A stretch of DNA of 64,000 bases from Exiguobacterium sp. Leaf196 (GTDB taxonomy: Bacteria; Bacillota; Bacilli; Exiguobacteriales; Exiguobacteriaceae): the NCBI RefSeq assembly GCF_001423965.1, contig NZ_LMPV01000001.1:943908-1007907 (forward strand), read 5' to 3'. Both the position numbers and the translations under genes were made by a program. The notes below the pieces were generated by a model, which was not told the DNA's origin, searched no databases, and saw nothing but the letters and a program-made list of their open reading frames with translations. Positions 18,578 through 29,754 of this stretch are shown here, piece by piece (within the stretch, counting starts at the first letter, position 1; every line of letters begins with the position of its first letter).

Positions 18578-18603
18578 GTACTGTTTATGAGGAGGTGTCT
18601 GCG

Positions 18604-19374
18604 ATGCAAACGTTTCGAAGCAAACTGATTGCGAGTTTCATTGGCTCTATTGTCGTTTTTCTATTGTTGTCCGTATCGACGCAGTCTGCGTATGAAGCGT
18701 TTCGGAATGCGGACTTCTCGGAACAAGAGACGACGATCGTGAGGGGATGTAATCATAACGACTTATCCAATTTATTCTTCACAAAAAATAGTTGTAATTT
18801 CGATGACAAAATCGATGAGAGAGAAGACGGCATCGATTTAGGTGAGTCCGATGATCAAAATAAAAGTACGGGTGGCACACCACGCGATCGAAAAGTAAAG
18901 GACCTTCCTCCATTTTCGATTATGAATGTTGTAGAAAGCACATCCTCCTCTAACAAAATGATATTCTTCACCGCTGTACTTGTACTGGTTGCTTTCGTAG
19001 GATACCGGATTTTTCATCGTCGGCGACGTTCATCACTACCACGAGAATTTGAAAGTGAATCAACCCGCTGGATCCAAGCATCGTCTGAAACGTCCATTCG
19101 GCAAACAAATCTTCAGTCGGTACTCACTCCGCCAGAACAATCACTACGCCTGATGCTATTTGATTTTAATCAACGCTTACCACTCGCCCTCAAGCGACGA
19201 AGCCATGAATCGTTGACAGACTGGACAGATCGCATTCACCTGGTGACGCCACTCTCACCTTATTTCGTCACCCGCTACGCGGCGCAAGCAGAAGTAGAAG
19301 CACTCGATGCACAAGCGATTCATCATTTCGAACAAGATCTTGCGCGTTATTTAAAGACAAAGCTCTCCCACTAA
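18604..19374 (+). CDS. two-TM protein with DUF4129-like C-terminal domain, ABC-associated
   Basis: This 256-residue protein has one TM near the N-terminus (about 9-25), an extracytoplasmic acidic loop of about 90 residues with two Cys (GCNHND and SCNFDD), a second TM (about 118-134), a basic patch (RRRRS) and a cytoplasmic helical domain. That domain, with LMLFDFNQRLPLALKRRSHESLTDW, is homologous to the end of the protein at 28622 and resembles DUF4129. It is encoded between ATPase and permease, so it is probably a subunit or regulator of that transporter. ATG 18604 is chosen (GGAGG 8 bases before); the upstream GTG overlaps the ribosome site. Confidence 0.7.
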   Translation: MQTFRSKLIASFIGSIVVFLLLSVSTQSAYEAFRNADFSEQETTIVRGCNHNDLSNLFFTKNSCNFDDKIDEREDGIDLGESDDQNKSTGGTPRDRKVKDLPPFSIMNVVESTSSSNKMIFFTAVLVLVAFVGYRIFHRRRRSSLPREFESESTRWIQASSETSIRQTNLQSVLTPPEQSLRLMLFDFNQRLPLALKRRSHESLTDWTDRIHLVTPLSPYFVTRYAAQAEVEALDAQAIHHFEQDLARYLKTKLSH

Positions 19375-22033: not shown

Positions 22034-22050
22034 ACTAAGGAGTTGTGCAC

Positions 22051-22578
22051 ATGAATTCTATTCAAGCAATATTTTTTGACCGAGACGGAACGATTGGTGG
22101 AGATAACACCGTCCACTATCCCGGAACGTTTACGTTATTCCCTCACGTCGCTTCACTAATAGAACGCTTACGTAACCAAGGTATGTTATTGATTGCGTTT
22201 ACGAATCAACCTGGTATCTCAAAAGGATTCGCGCGTGAAGAGGATTTTCGAACAGAATTACAGGGCTTCGGCTTTGATGATACGCTGATTTGTCCGCATG
22301 CAGCGGAAGATCACTGCACCTGTCGCAAACCATCACCAAATTTATTATGGCAAGCACAAGCAAAACACGATCTCCGACTCGAGCAATGTGTCGTCATTGG
22401 GGACCGCTGGAGTGATATGGTGGCAGCTGCACACGCCGGATGTATCAAAATCTTAGTCCGAACCGGTGCCGGAGAGAGCTCCATTCGTGATTACGCTGAC
22501 CGGATGGATCAAGCAAACGTCGACTATATCACCGACGACTTGGCAGAGGCAATCGCTTGGCTCGACAAGCAAAACTGA
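22051..22578 (+). CDS. HAD-IIIA phosphatase, GmhB-like
   Basis: This 175-residue HAD-IIIA phosphatase has FFDRDGT (Asp10, Asp12), TNQPGISKG, the zinc-loop Cys/His set C81-x-H83...C89-x-C91 (CPHAAEDHCTCRKP) and GDRWSDM. This pattern is that of histidinol-phosphate/heptose-bisphosphate phosphatases (GmhB type). ATG at 22051 fits AAGGAG at 8 bases better than the GTG at 22045. It lies 17 bases after the FtsX permease and could be co-transcribed, although no functional link is evident. A strong terminator follows. Confidence 0.88.
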   Translation: MNSIQAIFFDRDGTIGGDNTVHYPGTFTLFPHVASLIERLRNQGMLLIAFTNQPGISKGFAREEDFRTELQGFGFDDTLICPHAAEDHCTCRKPSPNLLWQAQAKHDLRLEQCVVIGDRWSDMVAAAHAGCIKILVRTGAGESSIRDYADRMDQANVDYITDDLAEAIAWLDKQN

Positions 22579-22626: not shown

Positions 22627-22641
22627 TTTCTTGGAACGTTT

Positions 22642-22710
22642 CTATTGAGAAGCTACGAAGATACTGTTCGCTAACACAAATAAGATTGCAAACCATGTCC
22701 AAAATGACAT
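22642..22710 (-). CDS. 22-residue membrane microprotein
   Basis: The open frame runs from ATG (22708-22710) to TAG (22642-22644). It encodes a single hydrophobic helix: MSFWTWFAILF followed by VLANSIFVASQ. AAAGGAG lies 8 bases upstream of the ATG, as good a ribosome site as any large gene here. It follows the 40-aa microprotein gene on the same strand by 71 bases, and they probably form one transcript. Single-TM peptides of this size often act as subunits or regulators of membrane complexes (KdpF- or CydX-like), or as toxins, but there is no sequence match I can name. Confidence 0.6.
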   Translation of the reverse strand: MSFWTWFAILFVLANSIFVASQ

Positions 22711-22781
22711 GCTACCGTCTCCTTTTGATGATGCGAGGGTACTTAAACTGTCTTCTTGTTCTTACCAAAAAGTTCCTGCAA

Positions 22782-22904
22782 TCATTTGTTAGCGATTTTT
22801 CGTAATAGATAGAGTGCATAGATGATTGATGGGATCGCCATCGCCATAAGAATGAGATGGACACTCCCAAATAAAAGATTCATTGCTAGACTAAAATCTG
22901 ACAC
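22782..22904 (-). CDS. 40-residue membrane microprotein
   Basis: A GTG start at 22902-22904 with GGAGG 8 bases upstream opens a 40-codon frame ending in TGA at 22782. The product starts MSDFSLAMNLLFGSV, has one long hydrophobic helix, and ends with a basic tail (LLRKIANK), typical of an N-out/C-in or cytosolic-tail single-pass protein. A candidate -10 (TATAGT) lies about 50 bases upstream. Together with the 22-aa gene it accounts for most of the space between the GmhB-like gene and the tandem paralogues. Confidence 0.6.
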   Translation of the reverse strand: MSDFSLAMNLLFGSVHLILMAMAIPSIIYALYLLRKIANK

Positions 22905-23063
22905 TTTTGTTTCCTCCTACGTTTCAATGGTCCTTATATTTATTTCACTATAATATTACATTAATCTATATTCTAAGCCTTACAATTATGTAATAATTTT
23001 CAATTCCGCTTCATCACAAGGAGATTCACGTTACACTGAACGTACGAAATAGAGGTGAATACG

Positions 23064-24320
23064 ATGCATGCTTTAACGAAACAGCTGACTGATTATATGC
23101 TCGAGAAATATCATTTAACTGATTATGTGCTCTATGAATCGTCCTACACGCAAAACAAAATGAACGACCAAACCGGTTACTCTTTCGAAACGTTCTGGAT
23201 TCCGCGTGGTACATCGGTCATCGAGGAAGAGGATGGCACGATGCTTCCTGAAGGAACGGTGCAGATTGCGATAAATCCTGTCACGAAACGAACGACAACG
23301 TTATCCTTACACGGTCAGATCCTGGTTCATTCCGTACCGAACGACTTACGTGATATCAGCACTCGTATCGCTTGGCTCGAGTCAGAAACCAGCATGATCC
23401 ATGGTACACATTTCATACTCGAAAAAGACGACGAAACTTTTTTCAGTTATGTGAGTTGTTACGACGGAGTCCGGCTGTCTCCCGGTTGCTTCATCCATCT
23501 GACGTTAACGGAAAATGGTCAACTCGACGAGTTGTTCATATACGGTCCTCATCCGCTTGATCACCGAGTGGAATCAAAATCTTTCACCTTAACACTTGAG
23601 GAAATTGAATCGCTAACCAAACAACAAATAAAATGGTTTTCCTACCCTAAAACAGGAAATCAATACGCGCATACCGTCGCTGAGGCGTTCGTGACGCAAG
23701 AAGCGTCTATCCTTGTTCCAAGTAAACTAGATTTCACATCATCCATCGAAGTGAATGATGTGTTATCTTGGACAGGTTTATCGTCTAAGACGCATGAACG
23801 GTATCCGTTTCAATCTGGAGAAACCGTGACCGCGAATGACGTGATCACGCAGACCGAACATCCGGATTTTCGTCCGATTCCGCAGGAGACTGCGGACGCT
23901 TGTCGCGCCGTGATCAAAGACATCATACAAAACGAGTATTCTGCCGATTCCGGACAATGGATGCTTCGGCACATTTACCGACAAGATCCCTACCTTGCTG
24001 TCACGTTGTCACACGCGCATCCGACGTCCTATGTCGATCAGCATCGACGCATCACGATTCTCCTTGACGCAAAAACACTTCACTGGATTGACTTGGTCGA
24101 CAATCAGGAACTCCAAACCGTGTTTGCTTCCGTTACCGTACCGGAGCTCGAAGATCATCAGCAAGACATCATTTTCAACGCACTACATCCGTACTTGTCT
24201 CTCACACCGCGTTATGTATTTGACGCTTCAAAAGGTCACTATGTTCTTTGTGGCTTGCTCAACTCGAATCATGTTTTCTTACCCGCAACAAATAAGGTCA
24301 TTTTATTACGAGATCTTTAA
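23064..24320 (+). CDS. unrecognised 418-aa protein, first of a tandem paralogous pair
   Basis: This 418-residue protein is about as long as its downstream neighbour and alignable with it throughout: shared blocks include LHGQILVHSVPNDLRD, YVSCYDGVRLSPG, THPD/EHPDFRPI and the terminus NHVFLPATNKVILLRDL. There is no signal peptide or TM; the profile is acidic and beta-rich. Two repeat-like halves (about 20-210 and 270-418) loosely recall YcdB/YcdC-type (DUF4901) repeats, but I cannot confirm this. ATG at 23064 is chosen over GTG 23055, which overlaps the AGAGGTG ribosome site. Cytoplasmic function unknown. Confidence 0.7.
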   Translation: MHALTKQLTDYMLEKYHLTDYVLYESSYTQNKMNDQTGYSFETFWIPRGTSVIEEEDGTMLPEGTVQIAINPVTKRTTTLSLHGQILVHSVPNDLRDISTRIAWLESETSMIHGTHFILEKDDETFFSYVSCYDGVRLSPGCFIHLTLTENGQLDELFIYGPHPLDHRVESKSFTLTLEEIESLTKQQIKWFSYPKTGNQYAHTVAEAFVTQEASILVPSKLDFTSSIEVNDVLSWTGLSSKTHERYPFQSGETVTANDVITQTEHPDFRPIPQETADACRAVIKDIIQNEYSADSGQWMLRHIYRQDPYLAVTLSHAHPTSYVDQHRRITILLDAKTLHWIDLVDNQELQTVFASVTVPELEDHQQDIIFNALHPYLSLTPRYVFDASKGHYVLCGLLNSNHVFLPATNKVILLRDL

Positions 24321-24351
24321 AGTGAATTCATATAATAAAGGAGTGAACACA

Positions 24352-25605
24352 TTGCATCCATTAACGAAAGATTTAATCTCCCATATCCAAGATAAATATC
24401 AACTGAACGATTATTTCCTACATGAATCCTTCTATCACCGCGAAAAAATTCATGGTGAAACTCAGTATTCGTTTGAGACATGTTGGTTCCCAATTCTGCA
24501 CGGTCCATGGTCTGAAGACGAGAGTTATCCAGACGGTACGATTGAGATCCAAGTCGATACAGCTACACGACGAACGACATCAATCAACAAACATGGTGAT
24601 GTCACGATTCATTCGGTTCCAGATGATTTACGTGATTCAGACATCCGGATTGATTGGCTTGAGCAAGAATTAGGAATGACATTCGACCAGCAATTCATGT
24701 TACTTACGCATCAAGATTCGCTGTATCAGTATGTCAGCTGTCATAACGGGATTCGCCTCTTCCCTGGTCTTATCATTTCGCTTGAATTGACGGACGACGG
24801 AGCGCTTGATTTTTTCAGTGTGTATGGAACCCCCGCCCTGAGCAACAATTATCCGACTGAATCGTTTTCACTGTCACCTGTTCAAATCACACCGATCATT
24901 ACAGAACAGATACGGTTCTTTTCAGCTCCTGGTGAGCAACAACGAATACAGGCGCATACAATCGAAGAAATCTTTGTTTCTCAAGATGGCTCGCATACGT
25001 ATCCCTTTAGTGATCCAGACACTTCGTCCGTTGCCCTGAACGAGATCGTGACATGGGACAAGCCATCTATGTTCTCCTACACGCGCAAATTGATTAAGCG
25101 GAGAGACGCCGCCACGGCACTCGATGCCGAAGCTCAAACATCACATCCGGATTACCGACCGTTGACCGATGAGACACTGACGACTTGTCAATCAATTGCT
25201 AAAGACGTCATCGCCGCGGAGTATCCTGAAGAGTCAGGAGCGTGGACGATTCAGGAAATCTATCGGGATTTTCCATTCATTAACGTGAAAGTACGCTGGA
25301 CACATGACGACCCAAATCTCGCTCATAAACGTCGTTTGACGATTCTCCTGATTGAAGAAACTTACGAAGTCAGCTTACTCGTTGATAACGAGTCGATTAT
25401 CGCGCTCTACCATGACTCGTCACAACCGTTGCCTAATAGCGTGCCCAAAGAAGCCATACGTGACGCACTCATGCCTTATGTGACATTAAAGCCCTATTAT
25501 GTTTTCGACCAGACGCTCGATCAGTACGTTCTCTGCGGACTGCTTGACTCGAATCATGCCTACTTACCGGCAACGAACGAAGTCGTTTTAATGCGCGACT
25601 TATGA
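24352..25605 (+). CDS. unrecognised 417-aa protein, second of the tandem pair
   Basis: This 417-residue paralogue of the preceding gene product shares HPLTKDLISHIQDKYQLNDY at the start, GDVTIHSVPDDLRDSDI, YVSCHNGIRLFPG, HPDYRPLTDET and NHAYLPATNEVVLMRDL at the end. TTG start at 24352-24354 with AAGGAG 8 bases upstream; the open frame continues back to 23995 inside the first gene, but that part is a shadow. The gap between the pair is only 31 bases, so one transcript is likely. It arose by local duplication followed by clear divergence. Confidence 0.7.
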   Translation: MHPLTKDLISHIQDKYQLNDYFLHESFYHREKIHGETQYSFETCWFPILHGPWSEDESYPDGTIEIQVDTATRRTTSINKHGDVTIHSVPDDLRDSDIRIDWLEQELGMTFDQQFMLLTHQDSLYQYVSCHNGIRLFPGLIISLELTDDGALDFFSVYGTPALSNNYPTESFSLSPVQITPIITEQIRFFSAPGEQQRIQAHTIEEIFVSQDGSHTYPFSDPDTSSVALNEIVTWDKPSMFSYTRKLIKRRDAATALDAEAQTSHPDYRPLTDETLTTCQSIAKDVIAAEYPEESGAWTIQEIYRDFPFINVKVRWTHDDPNLAHKRRLTILLIEETYEVSLLVDNESIIALYHDSSQPLPNSVPKEAIRDALMPYVTLKPYYVFDQTLDQYVLCGLLDSNHAYLPATNEVVLMRDL

Positions 25606-25606
25606 G

Positions 25607-26137
25607 TCAGTTCAGCCATTGATCTATCCGATTGTTTACGTCTTGCGGGAGATTAAGTCGTCTCAGTTGTTCGAGTCGTTCTCGGTCCACTTCCTGATCA
25701 GCAAGACAGTGCTCAATCATCACGACTTTTTGTTCTCGTCCTGGGATTAATTGATAGATGACATACCAATCGACGAGTGACATAAATGGAGGTCCGGTCT
25801 CATTAATCGTTTGTTCAGCAAATGGATAGACGAAGATTCCCTCATCATGGCGAATCCGCAGTCCGCTCATCAGATCGAGATCAATATCATGAATGATGAA
25901 TTCCTGAAACACTTGTGTCGCGTACAATGACGTCTCATCGTGTTCGACGACAGTTCCCATCTCCGATAACAATTGAATGGCTCGTTCAACGTCTTCTAGT
26001 GCGACGACGAGATCGATGTCGCGCGGAGTGACAGGCAGTCCATGATGTGCTAACAGCAATGAACCACCGATGCCGAAGCGAATTTGCTCTTGTTGTAATG
26101 CCTTGACGATATAGGCTAATACTTCCTGTAAGTTCAT
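25607..26137 (-). CDS. nucleotidyltransferase-fold protein
   Basis: This 176-residue protein has an N-terminal nucleotidyltransferase core: IGGSLLLAHHGLP (GGS motif) then TPRDIDLVVALE (DxD pair) at about 23-48, and a third strand with DIDLDLMSG around residue 87. This fits the minimal NTase/AbiEii-like superfamily. The target is unknown, and no obvious antitoxin is adjacent, although the TetR gene is co-directional and overlaps by 4 bases (ATGA, 26134-26137). The stop codon lies 1 base from the stop of the convergent 417-aa gene. Confidence 0.75.
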   Translation of the reverse strand: MNLQEVLAYIVKALQQEQIRFGIGGSLLLAHHGLPVTPRDIDLVVALEDVERAIQLLSEMGTVVEHDETSLYATQVFQEFIIHDIDLDLMSGLRIRHDEGIFVYPFAEQTINETGPPFMSLVDWYVIYQLIPGREQKVVMIEHCLADQEVDRERLEQLRRLNLPQDVNNRIDQWLN

Positions 26138-28621: not shown

Positions 28622-28637
28622 TTACACGAGCCGTGTC
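28605..28637. terminator. bidirectional terminator spanning two abutting stop codons
   Basis: GACACGGCT (28611-28619) pairs with AGCCGTGTC (28629-28637). The minus-strand transcript ends in TTTTTT. The stops of the convergent genes (TGA 28619-28621 and TAA 28622-28624) fall at the loop, so no non-coding base separates the two genes. Confidence 0.8.
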
Positions 28638-29326
28638 TGATTTTGCTTAAGCTGTTCGAGGAAAGCAGTCCGTCGAGAGGGATCGAGTGTCTGCTCTTCC
28701 ACGTCGGCATAGCGGACGAGCTGATACATCTCACTCGGAACCGTGACTTCTAAGCGTGTCAACCACTCCTTCAGCGTCTCATGTGTCCGCCGTCGCTGCG
28801 CTGGAGCAAGTGACCGATTGAACGTACGCACCGCTTCACGAATTTCCGAATCAAGAATACTGTCTTCTAAGGAGAGCTGGACTTCAGGCGTTAGCGGAAG
28901 CGATAGATCGGTTCGCTTCCTTTGATGCCCCGAGGGGAATGACCACTGCATGCGGTTGAATCGTTGTCTACGATAGAGATAAATGATCATCACTAGAGCG
29001 ACAATCCAAGGAGCCACGCGAGTGATTTGATTGATTGCATCCGTCCATGATTCCTTTCCCACTTTAACAACAGGTTTCTTATCCGGCTCTTTCCGATATC
29101 CTTTGTGCCCATTTTTCGAAGAGCTCAGTGCCTTTGTGATCAAATCTTTTTTCGCATAGATGACTTTTTTAGTCGGTAAGATCGTGCTCGGGACATGTAC
29201 CCAGTTTCCCGTCGACTGATCGATCGGAGGATCGACTAATGCTTGATACGACAGTTTTACACCAACGACGCCTAAAAATAGCAATACGCATATCATGAAA
29301 GTCATTCCAATCATTCGACGTCTCAT
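28622..29326 (-). CDS. two-TM protein with DUF4129-like C-terminal domain
   Basis: This 234-residue protein has an N-terminal TM (about residues 5-24), an extracytoplasmic Lys-rich region (about 25-100), a second TM (about 108-124), a basic stretch (RRQRFNRM) and a C-terminal helical domain (VRTFNRSLAPAQRRRTHETL, EWLTRLEV). That domain is homologous to the end of the 18604 product. Its neighbour here is a TetR-controlled ABC-2 exporter read in the opposite direction. ATG at 29324-29326 follows GGAGGTGCAGG; the open frame beyond it has no ribosome site. Confidence 0.7.
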   Translation of the reverse strand: MRRRMIGMTFMICVLLFLGVVGVKLSYQALVDPPIDQSTGNWVHVPSTILPTKKVIYAKKDLITKALSSSKNGHKGYRKEPDKKPVVKVGKESWTDAINQITRVAPWIVALVMIIYLYRRQRFNRMQWSFPSGHQRKRTDLSLPLTPEVQLSLEDSILDSEIREAVRTFNRSLAPAQRRRTHETLKEWLTRLEVTVPSEMYQLVRYADVEEQTLDPSRRTAFLEQLKQNQTRLV

Positions 29327-29409
29327 TTCATCCTGCACCTCCAAAAGGAAATCGAAATCCTTAACACAAGATCTTTTCCCATATGTTACCATGAAAGGAG
29401 GCGATTCAG

Positions 29410-29754
29410 ATGAGTTATGAAAAAGTATTTCAAATGCCGATGCAACAGCTGTACAACGTATACCTACAAAAAGTAGAGCGCAAGCAACGGACGCAAGAGG
29501 AGCTCGATGAAGTTCTGTTCTGGTTAACGGGGCATTCGCACTCTTCACTCGAACAAGCAAAACAAACCCAAACCGTCGCAGCTTTTTTTGAGCACGCACC
29601 CGATTTGAACGAACGTCGATTTTTAGTCACTGGTGTCATCTGCGGGATTCGAGTCGAGAACTTAACGGATCCACACATCCGTAACATCCGGATTCTCGAT
29701 AAACTTGTCGATGAACTGGCAAAAGGAAAAGCATTATCTAAGATTTTACGATAA
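29410..29754 (+). CDS. DUF2200 family protein
   Basis: This 114-residue protein is a full-length DUF2200 match: VFQMPMQQLYNVYLQKVERKQRT..., LFWLTGHS, RRFLVTGVICGIRVE and the ending LDKLVDELAKGKALSKILR (pieces quoted separately). It is a cytoplasmic protein of unknown function, often a single gene in Bacillota and other phyla. AAAGGAGGCGATTCAG precedes the ATG. A 56-aa membrane protein gene follows 12 bases after the stop. Confidence 0.85.
   Translation: MSYEKVFQMPMQQLYNVYLQKVERKQRTQEELDEVLFWLTGHSHSSLEQAKQTQTVAAFFEHAPDLNERRFLVTGVICGIRVENLTDPHIRNIRILDKLVDELAKGKALSKILR

Follow-up and report, generated by a model that had tools for sequence, protein, structure and literature searches.

The window analysed here, i.e., the whole 64,000-nucleotide stretch of Exiguobacterium DNA, carries two adjacent genes, designated A and B, which form a genuine tandem pair under constraint and belong to a family not described in the open-licence literature searched. 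Sequence profiles and a predicted structure suggest that this family is related by descent to the DUF4901 (YcdB/YcdC) repeat proteins and has a fold of the PepSY type, as in YpeB. We tentatively propose, with a probability of about 0.45, that A and B are cytoplasmic, stand-alone PepSY-type members of a Bacilli-wide family, which would bind another protein inside the cell.

Gene pair and its products

Gene A starts with ATG and is followed by B in the same direction after a gap of 31 bases (Table 1); both are probably made from one transcript. End-to-end alignment of the two proteins (419 columns, E = 2e-110) gave 40% identity and 60% positives, a likeness far above chance, and both reading frames were recovered as adjacent paralogues of 418 and 417 aa, just as the first-pass annotation of this DNA had described them. 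An in-frame GTG lies nine bases 5' of each start, at 23055 for A and at 24343 for B; the downstream starts are preferred because of their spacing from the putative ribosome-binding sites. ATG, GTG or TTG occupies the preferred start position in all 15 Exiguobacterium copies, and GGAGTGAAC is found 5' of B in 8 of 8 B copies.

Peak hydropathy over 19 residues was 0.81 for A and 1.03 for B, the range across 36 family members being 0.69-1.51, and by this measure no hydrophobic export or membrane segment was detected in A, B or any of the 36 members. These low values bear out the earlier prediction of a cytoplasmic location. The conserved blocks noted previously are present in the window pair, though one of them, VHSVPNDLRD, is a motif of the genus only. 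Family-wide, the 36-row alignment retains 16 invariant residues (Y39, P62, G64, T65, W104, E106, F117, P140, G152, W236, W299, D346, Y384, V385, L395 and C396), mostly aromatic, proline, glycine or aliphatic.

Table 1. Features of the A/B locus and copies of gene C; positions are those of the window unless a locus is named.
Feature	Position	Strand	Remark
HAD phosphatase gene upstream of A	22045-22578	+	Context
Possible remnant of gene C (3' end)	23038-23058	+	By-eye resemblance to G002, G003 and G011; tentative
Putative ribosome-binding site of A (AGAGGTG)	23051-23057	+	From sequence; overlaps the alternative GTG at 23055
Gene A, candidate distant relative of the DUF4901/PepSY superfamily	23064-24320	+	418 aa; predicted to be cytoplasmic
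A unit 1, residues 1-92	23064-23339	+	Predicted helix 3-15, strands 21-33, 36-47, 66-70, 77-82 (AlphaFold/DSSP, limits by eye)
A unit 2, residues 93-172	23340-23579	+	Predicted helix 98-109, strands 117-122, 126-133, 143-148, 154-160 (AlphaFold/DSSP, limits by eye)
A unit 3, residues 173-255	23580-23828	+	Least regular; predicted helix 179-187, strands 189-194, 200-205, 208-211, 227-234 (limits by eye)
A unit 4, residues 256-358	23829-24137	+	Predicted helix 274-291, strands 299-307, 310-317, 329-335, 341-346 (AlphaFold/DSSP)
A unit 5, residues 359-418	24138-24317	+	Predicted helix 364-377, strands 378-387, 392-401, 403-406, 411-414 (AlphaFold/DSSP)
Putative ribosome-binding site of B (AAAGGAGTG)	24337-24345	+	From sequence; overlaps the alternative GTG at 24343
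Gene B, paralogue of A	24352-25605	+	417 aa; TTG start
Nucleotidyltransferase-like gene, convergent	25607-26137	-	176 aa; context of A/B
Gene C copy	L148:6396-7064	+	
Gene C copy	L009:827-1495	+	
Gene C copy	L146:6115-6783	-	

Predicted structure of A

The AlphaFold model of A, computed with the 36-member alignment, had a mean pLDDT of 87.8 and a pTM of 0.78; a first fold with 15 Exiguobacterium sequences reached a pLDDT of 53.2 and was dropped from the fold search. The model supports the beta-rich character that had been ascribed to the proteins. Its DSSP elements, divided by eye, form five successive helix-plus-strands units, of which the third is irregular, with pLDDT near 70 in places; instead of the two-part layout supposed earlier, the model suggests five units. 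Unit 4 is part of the C-terminal half aligning best to DUF4901, while unit 5 holds the invariant Y384, V385, L395 and C396, and its last residues can be aligned with the 'DA-TGE' terminus of DUF4901.

Foldseek returned one PDB match to the model at E 0.001 or better, namely 5boi, the PepSY region of YpeB (E 4.1e-4, probability 1.00, TM 0.25 by query). In VIA-align the same structure gave a Z of 9.4 over 187 residues of 226 at 5.5 Å, a loose superposition, the next row being an unrelated NTF2-like protein (Z 6.0); YycI (2o3o) scored 5.6 and the metallopeptidase chains 3nqy, 3nqz and 4k90 scored 4.7-5.0. The metallopeptidase chains are propeptides of PepSY type; the Z values of all four structures, lying at the level of unrelated rows, would alone mean little. 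Judged on the model, A would thus possess a PepSY-type fold, an assignment that we consider firm enough to build on. The top rank in a viral structure library (E 2.9e-4 but probability 0.28) was treated as noise, and the best sequence matches in the PDB (E 1.4 for A and 0.1 for the profile of the 36-member alignment, A2) were judged to be chance.

Kinship with DUF4901 and PepSY proteins

No model of Pfam, NCBIfam or PADLOC matched A or B, in keeping with the unrecognised status given to the family by the first-pass annotation, and the one PHROGs match, for B at E 0.22, is at chance level. Neither protein exceeded the gathering cut-off of DUF4901 (PF16244), 27 bits, and a plain Pfam scan detected this domain in 2 of the 36 family members with a best E of 0.057. 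DUF4901/YcdB, which had been named as a family to check in Pfam, nevertheless turned out to be the nearest relative, through profile-profile comparison alone. Thirty DUF4901 loci were fetched, of which 24 entered comparisons of separate sets and 19 a combined alignment, the five sigma-fused ones being excluded from the latter. With hhalign, A2 scored 98.1% against the 19 combined proteins (E 1.4e-13, 370 columns), and at the level of sequence profiles the homology is seen to span nearly the whole length, including both repeats. Scores were 96.6% for A2 against 12 long DUF4901 proteins, 94.3% for its C-terminal half against seven shorter ones, and only 5.0% for A2 against the five proteins fused to sigma factors. 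Reversed and column-shuffled versions of A2 stayed at or below 0.2% against the separate DUF4901 sets, and 27 unrelated neighbourhood families, taken as decoys, at or below 1.5%.

Against 28 YpeB sequences (28 of 30 loci used) A2 scored 1.1%, i.e., no direct profile match was obtained. The DUF4901 sets matched YpeB at 95-96%, and one DUF4901 protein (L061) lies above Pfam's PepSY cut-off; consequently, the chain leading from A/B through DUF4901 to PepSY is supported link by link. As to internal repeats, ten profile comparisons among the A/B family's own parts detected none by sequence (at most 1.3%; 0.1% for the N-terminal against the C-terminal half of A2). Alternative alignments placed the C-terminal half on the first DUF4901 copy at 93.4% and the N-terminal half on the second at 57.1%, so that at the profile level the supposed two-part layout shows at most indirectly, in these cross-fits, and not in self-comparison.

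Among the fetched loci, proteins of about 655 aa were observed in which a sigma factor (Sigma70 region 2 and 4) is fused to two DUF4901 stretches (L039:532-2505 (-), L044:523-2481 (-) and L050:958-2931 (+)); in these fusions DUF4901 may serve as a built-in regulator.

Distribution, duplication and selection

The cassette, meaning A and/or B, was found in 9 of 19 Exiguobacterium genomes and in none of 19 genomes of the sister genus, the order-level search covering the same 38 genomes. Six Exiguobacterium genomes possess A and B together, G007 has a single A-type copy, and G010 and G017 have B alone, so that clade A is represented in seven genomes and clade B in eight. In the class sample of 398 Bacilli genomes, 34 matched at E 0.1 or better, nine being Exiguobacterium; full or near-full copies occur in 21 of the 25 other carriers (13 genera, nine families), and homologues outside Exiguobacterium are 23-28% identical. 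The phylum sample (398 genomes) yielded five matching genomes, one of them (G446) outside the class. Both searches scored the best four candidates per genome, and second copies may be undercounted there. The weak, frame-broken or fragmentary sequences of G102, G126, G148 and G218 were left out of A2, and two partial rows were kept: L021, which has an internal TGA and lacks the N-terminus, and L028, which lacks the usual start codon and was trimmed. A search of genome contigs with A alone detected one relative, in E. indicum HHS 31; viral contigs, plasmids and phages gave none. On the sequences sampled, the family is Bacilli-wide, and the tandem duplication is not. In G446 the neighbourhood of the family member includes, at about 0.9 kb, a 583-aa ORF with DUF4901 that looks secreted (L149:849-2600 (+)) and, at 0.2 kb, an ORF of 169 aa that has no Pfam match (L149:2834-3343 (+)).

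In the midpoint-rooted tree of 36 members, the A clade (100/100) and the B clade (100/99) are separate and share a long stem that has full support. This topology indicates that the duplication is Exiguobacterium's own and older than the split of the carrier species; the tandem duplication presumably took place in an ancestor of the Exiguobacterium species that carry it. The earlier notion of a lineage-specific duplication therefore stands in so far as it is confined to Exiguobacterium within the sample, with the qualifications that it predates the split of its carriers and that the family itself is spread across Bacilli. The dN/dS ratio was 0.21-0.34 within A (21 pairs) and 0.15-0.37 within B (28 pairs), and no in-frame stop was present in the 15 Exiguobacterium copies. 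Such ratios point to constraint on both copies; purifying selection on A and B means that both are used and says nothing of the separate ligands hinted at by the first-pass annotation. In the six genomes compared, the likeness of A to B is highest in the last 42 columns (64-79% vs 19-52% in other windows of the alignment). The single copy of G007 (L004, 3' end) is best read, from its sequence, as an A-B crossover that deleted B, since its last 30 bases and downstream flank are B-like (30/30 identical to B of G011) and the 90 bases opening the compared stretch are A-like.

Genomic surroundings and gene C

In all nine carriers the cassette lies between the HAD phosphatase and the nucleotidyltransferase-like genes. 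The former is at least 86% identical among these nine genomes, with relatives of 56-60% in three others; the latter, at least 72% identical, occurs in exactly these nine, with 37% relatives in two others. Both flanks track the cassette, which argues for a subclade marker rather than a functional link. Cargo of a mobile element was rejected as an explanation on account of these constant flanks and of the lack of relatives in viral contigs, plasmids and phages. In 20 loci of other Bacilli the only neighbours seen in more than one family were transporter-type, ABC and ger-like genes; a conserved partner gene was accordingly rejected, and PADLOC names no anti-phage defence protein here.

The nucleotidyltransferase-like gene has a weak match to aminoglycoside 2''-adenylyltransferase (22.5 vs the Pfam cut-off of 21 bits), which by itself does not imply resistance. 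Proteins related to one another, 24-34% identical in the main matching parts, are encoded in the window at 18595-19374 (+) and 28622-29599 (-), both without Pfam match, and at L146:7549-8280 (+), between the HAD gene and gene C of G017. Upstream of A, window positions 22640-22900 (-) contain two short hydrophobic frames (about 22 and 33 codons), and similar DNA is found in G001, G007 and G016.

A third gene, C, encoding 222 aa and matching no Pfam family, is located directly upstream of A or B in five of the nine cassette genomes, in the order C-A-B in G002, G003 and G011 and C-B in G010 and G017; in G003, 5 bases separate the stop of C from the more probable start of A. Gene C is missing from the window and from G001, G007 and G016. 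Among the 398 class genomes it was detected in the five Exiguobacterium and in ten others, six of the latter being clear relatives (E 6.5e-10 or better). Two of these six lie within RHS loci, one (L171) on the 3' side of a gene for a 1635-aa RHS protein and adjoining a barstar gene, the other (L167) between RHS pieces; for the remaining four no RHS gene was found in the stretch examined. The relatives in RHS loci suggest C as a possible immunity-type protein, a role that A and B might share.

Proposed function and alternatives

We propose that A and B would not be enzymes and that each would bind, stabilise or restrain a protein partner inside the cell, possibly a partner of its own. This binding role is suggested by the lack of an export or membrane segment, by the lack of any enzyme match and by the predominance of aromatic, glycine, proline and aliphatic residues among the invariants. 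The model for it is YpeB, a spore protein mutually dependent with SleB in the spore (PMC6660665) and one which, according to a further abstract, may keep SleB inactive (PMC13393411). According to the portions of the former source consulted, inhibition of SleB in vitro is strongest with the N-terminal part of YpeB; the PepSY part, from which no cross-link to SleB was obtained, is required for YpeB to be stably incorporated and perhaps for it to form multimers (PMC6660665). The analogy is weakened thereby, and 'inhibit' is less secure; to stabilise or restrain a partner can be regarded as a fair analogy from YpeB.

The surroundings of gene C lend themselves to another explanation, in which A, B and C would constitute a three-gene immunity array against the toxins of neighbouring bacteria, every protein of it counteracting one toxin domain and the PepSY-like array serving as toxin-binding surface. 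Besides the adjacency of C and the RHS and barstar contexts of its relatives, this is favoured by the loss of single array members in different species and by the A-B fusion in G007. We consider it a serious competitor, though less likely than the binding role. A motif rule which flags both Pfam-confirmed RHS proteins recognised no RHS-like gene among 413 ORFs drawn from the window region, from E. indicum and from the 20 loci of other Bacilli, and ten scanned window neighbours of A and B likewise included none; C was found in none of those 20 loci and is absent from the window, and four of its six clear relatives have no RHS gene nearby in the stretch examined. Furthermore, carriers of the same genus share the locus (three genomes of g50, where three of five genomes carry it, and three of g73), unlike freely exchanged immunity genes, and to our knowledge PepSY is not an immunity fold. 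An intermediate scheme, in which PepSY arrays have become cytoplasmic inhibitors and the Exiguobacterium duplication together with an immunity-type gene has given a three-gene protection cassette, appears to us distinctly unlikely; if true, each PepSY-array protein of the cassette would block a different hydrolase, incoming or endogenous.

The invariance of Cys396, Asp346, Glu106 and Thr65 in the 36-row alignment would fit an enzyme, and Cys396 with Asp346 could conceal unrecognised chemistry, which counts against intracellular binding. These four polar residues are, however, spread over four units, no invariant His or recognised motif accompanies them, no enzyme family rises above chance and no enzyme fold is prominent in VIA-align, so that we regard an enzyme as improbable. 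A spore or germination function, after the manner of YpeB with SleB, seems to be very improbable, in spite of the fold match of A to YpeB and of the presence of YpeB in all six non-Exiguobacterium carriers falling within an 81-genome YpeB survey. Genes near the relatives of A and B that we take to resemble germination-receptor (ger) genes occur at distances of 0.2-6.3 kb in five of the 20 other-Bacilli loci, from three families, the nearest at 246 bases (L068); yet three of these five loci come from one genus, where the distance is at least about 4 kb, and ger operons are numerous in spore formers. Exiguobacterium is non-sporulating, and YpeB is missing from both its genomes in the survey, that of the window included, where the copies are still constrained. 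That A and B are functionless relics or an annotation artefact can practically be dismissed: the patchy distribution, the fragments in G148 and the frame break in G126 would fit, but dN/dS is 0.15-0.37 over all 49 within-clade pairs and the 15 copies are free of stops.

Implications and comparison with known systems

Intracellular binding by A and B remains our preferred reading, with an immunity role as its main competitor. The open-licence literature searched contains no mention of DUF4901 and never names YcdB, YcdC and Bacillus together, hence no role is assigned there to the relatives; in the portions of articles covered, two of YcdB, YcdC and CwlK are co-mentioned only in E. coli work. 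If the model of A is correct, a fold can be assigned to a family that occurs across Bacilli, escapes recognition by the versions of Pfam and NCBIfam used and reaches 13 genera besides Exiguobacterium in the 398-genome sample. The model would also place PepSY-type modules in proteins without an export signal, to which the usual settings, a propeptide or a spore cortex enzyme, are inapplicable. The C-A-B cassette of Exiguobacterium has undergone natural losses and one A-B fusion, and these variants form a ready-made series for probing the protected or restrained target.

Among known systems, the best fold match to A is the PepSY region of YpeB (5boi; PF14620), with a Z of 9.4 set against a sequence-profile signal of 1.1%. 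YpeB acts in the spore with SleB, whereas A and B have no export segment and occur in a genus without detected YpeB (two members surveyed). YycI and the metallopeptidase propeptides, which are membrane-tethered or secreted, are weaker fold matches (Z 4.7-5.6). The gene C family shares the cassette with A and B in five of nine genomes and is not found beside their relatives in the 20 other-Bacilli loci. DUF4901 proteins differ from A and B in size, 22 of the 30 fetched being at least 582 aa long, and resemble them in that tandem proteins occur there too, as in G102 with four DUF4901 matches in two adjacent frames of 466 codons.
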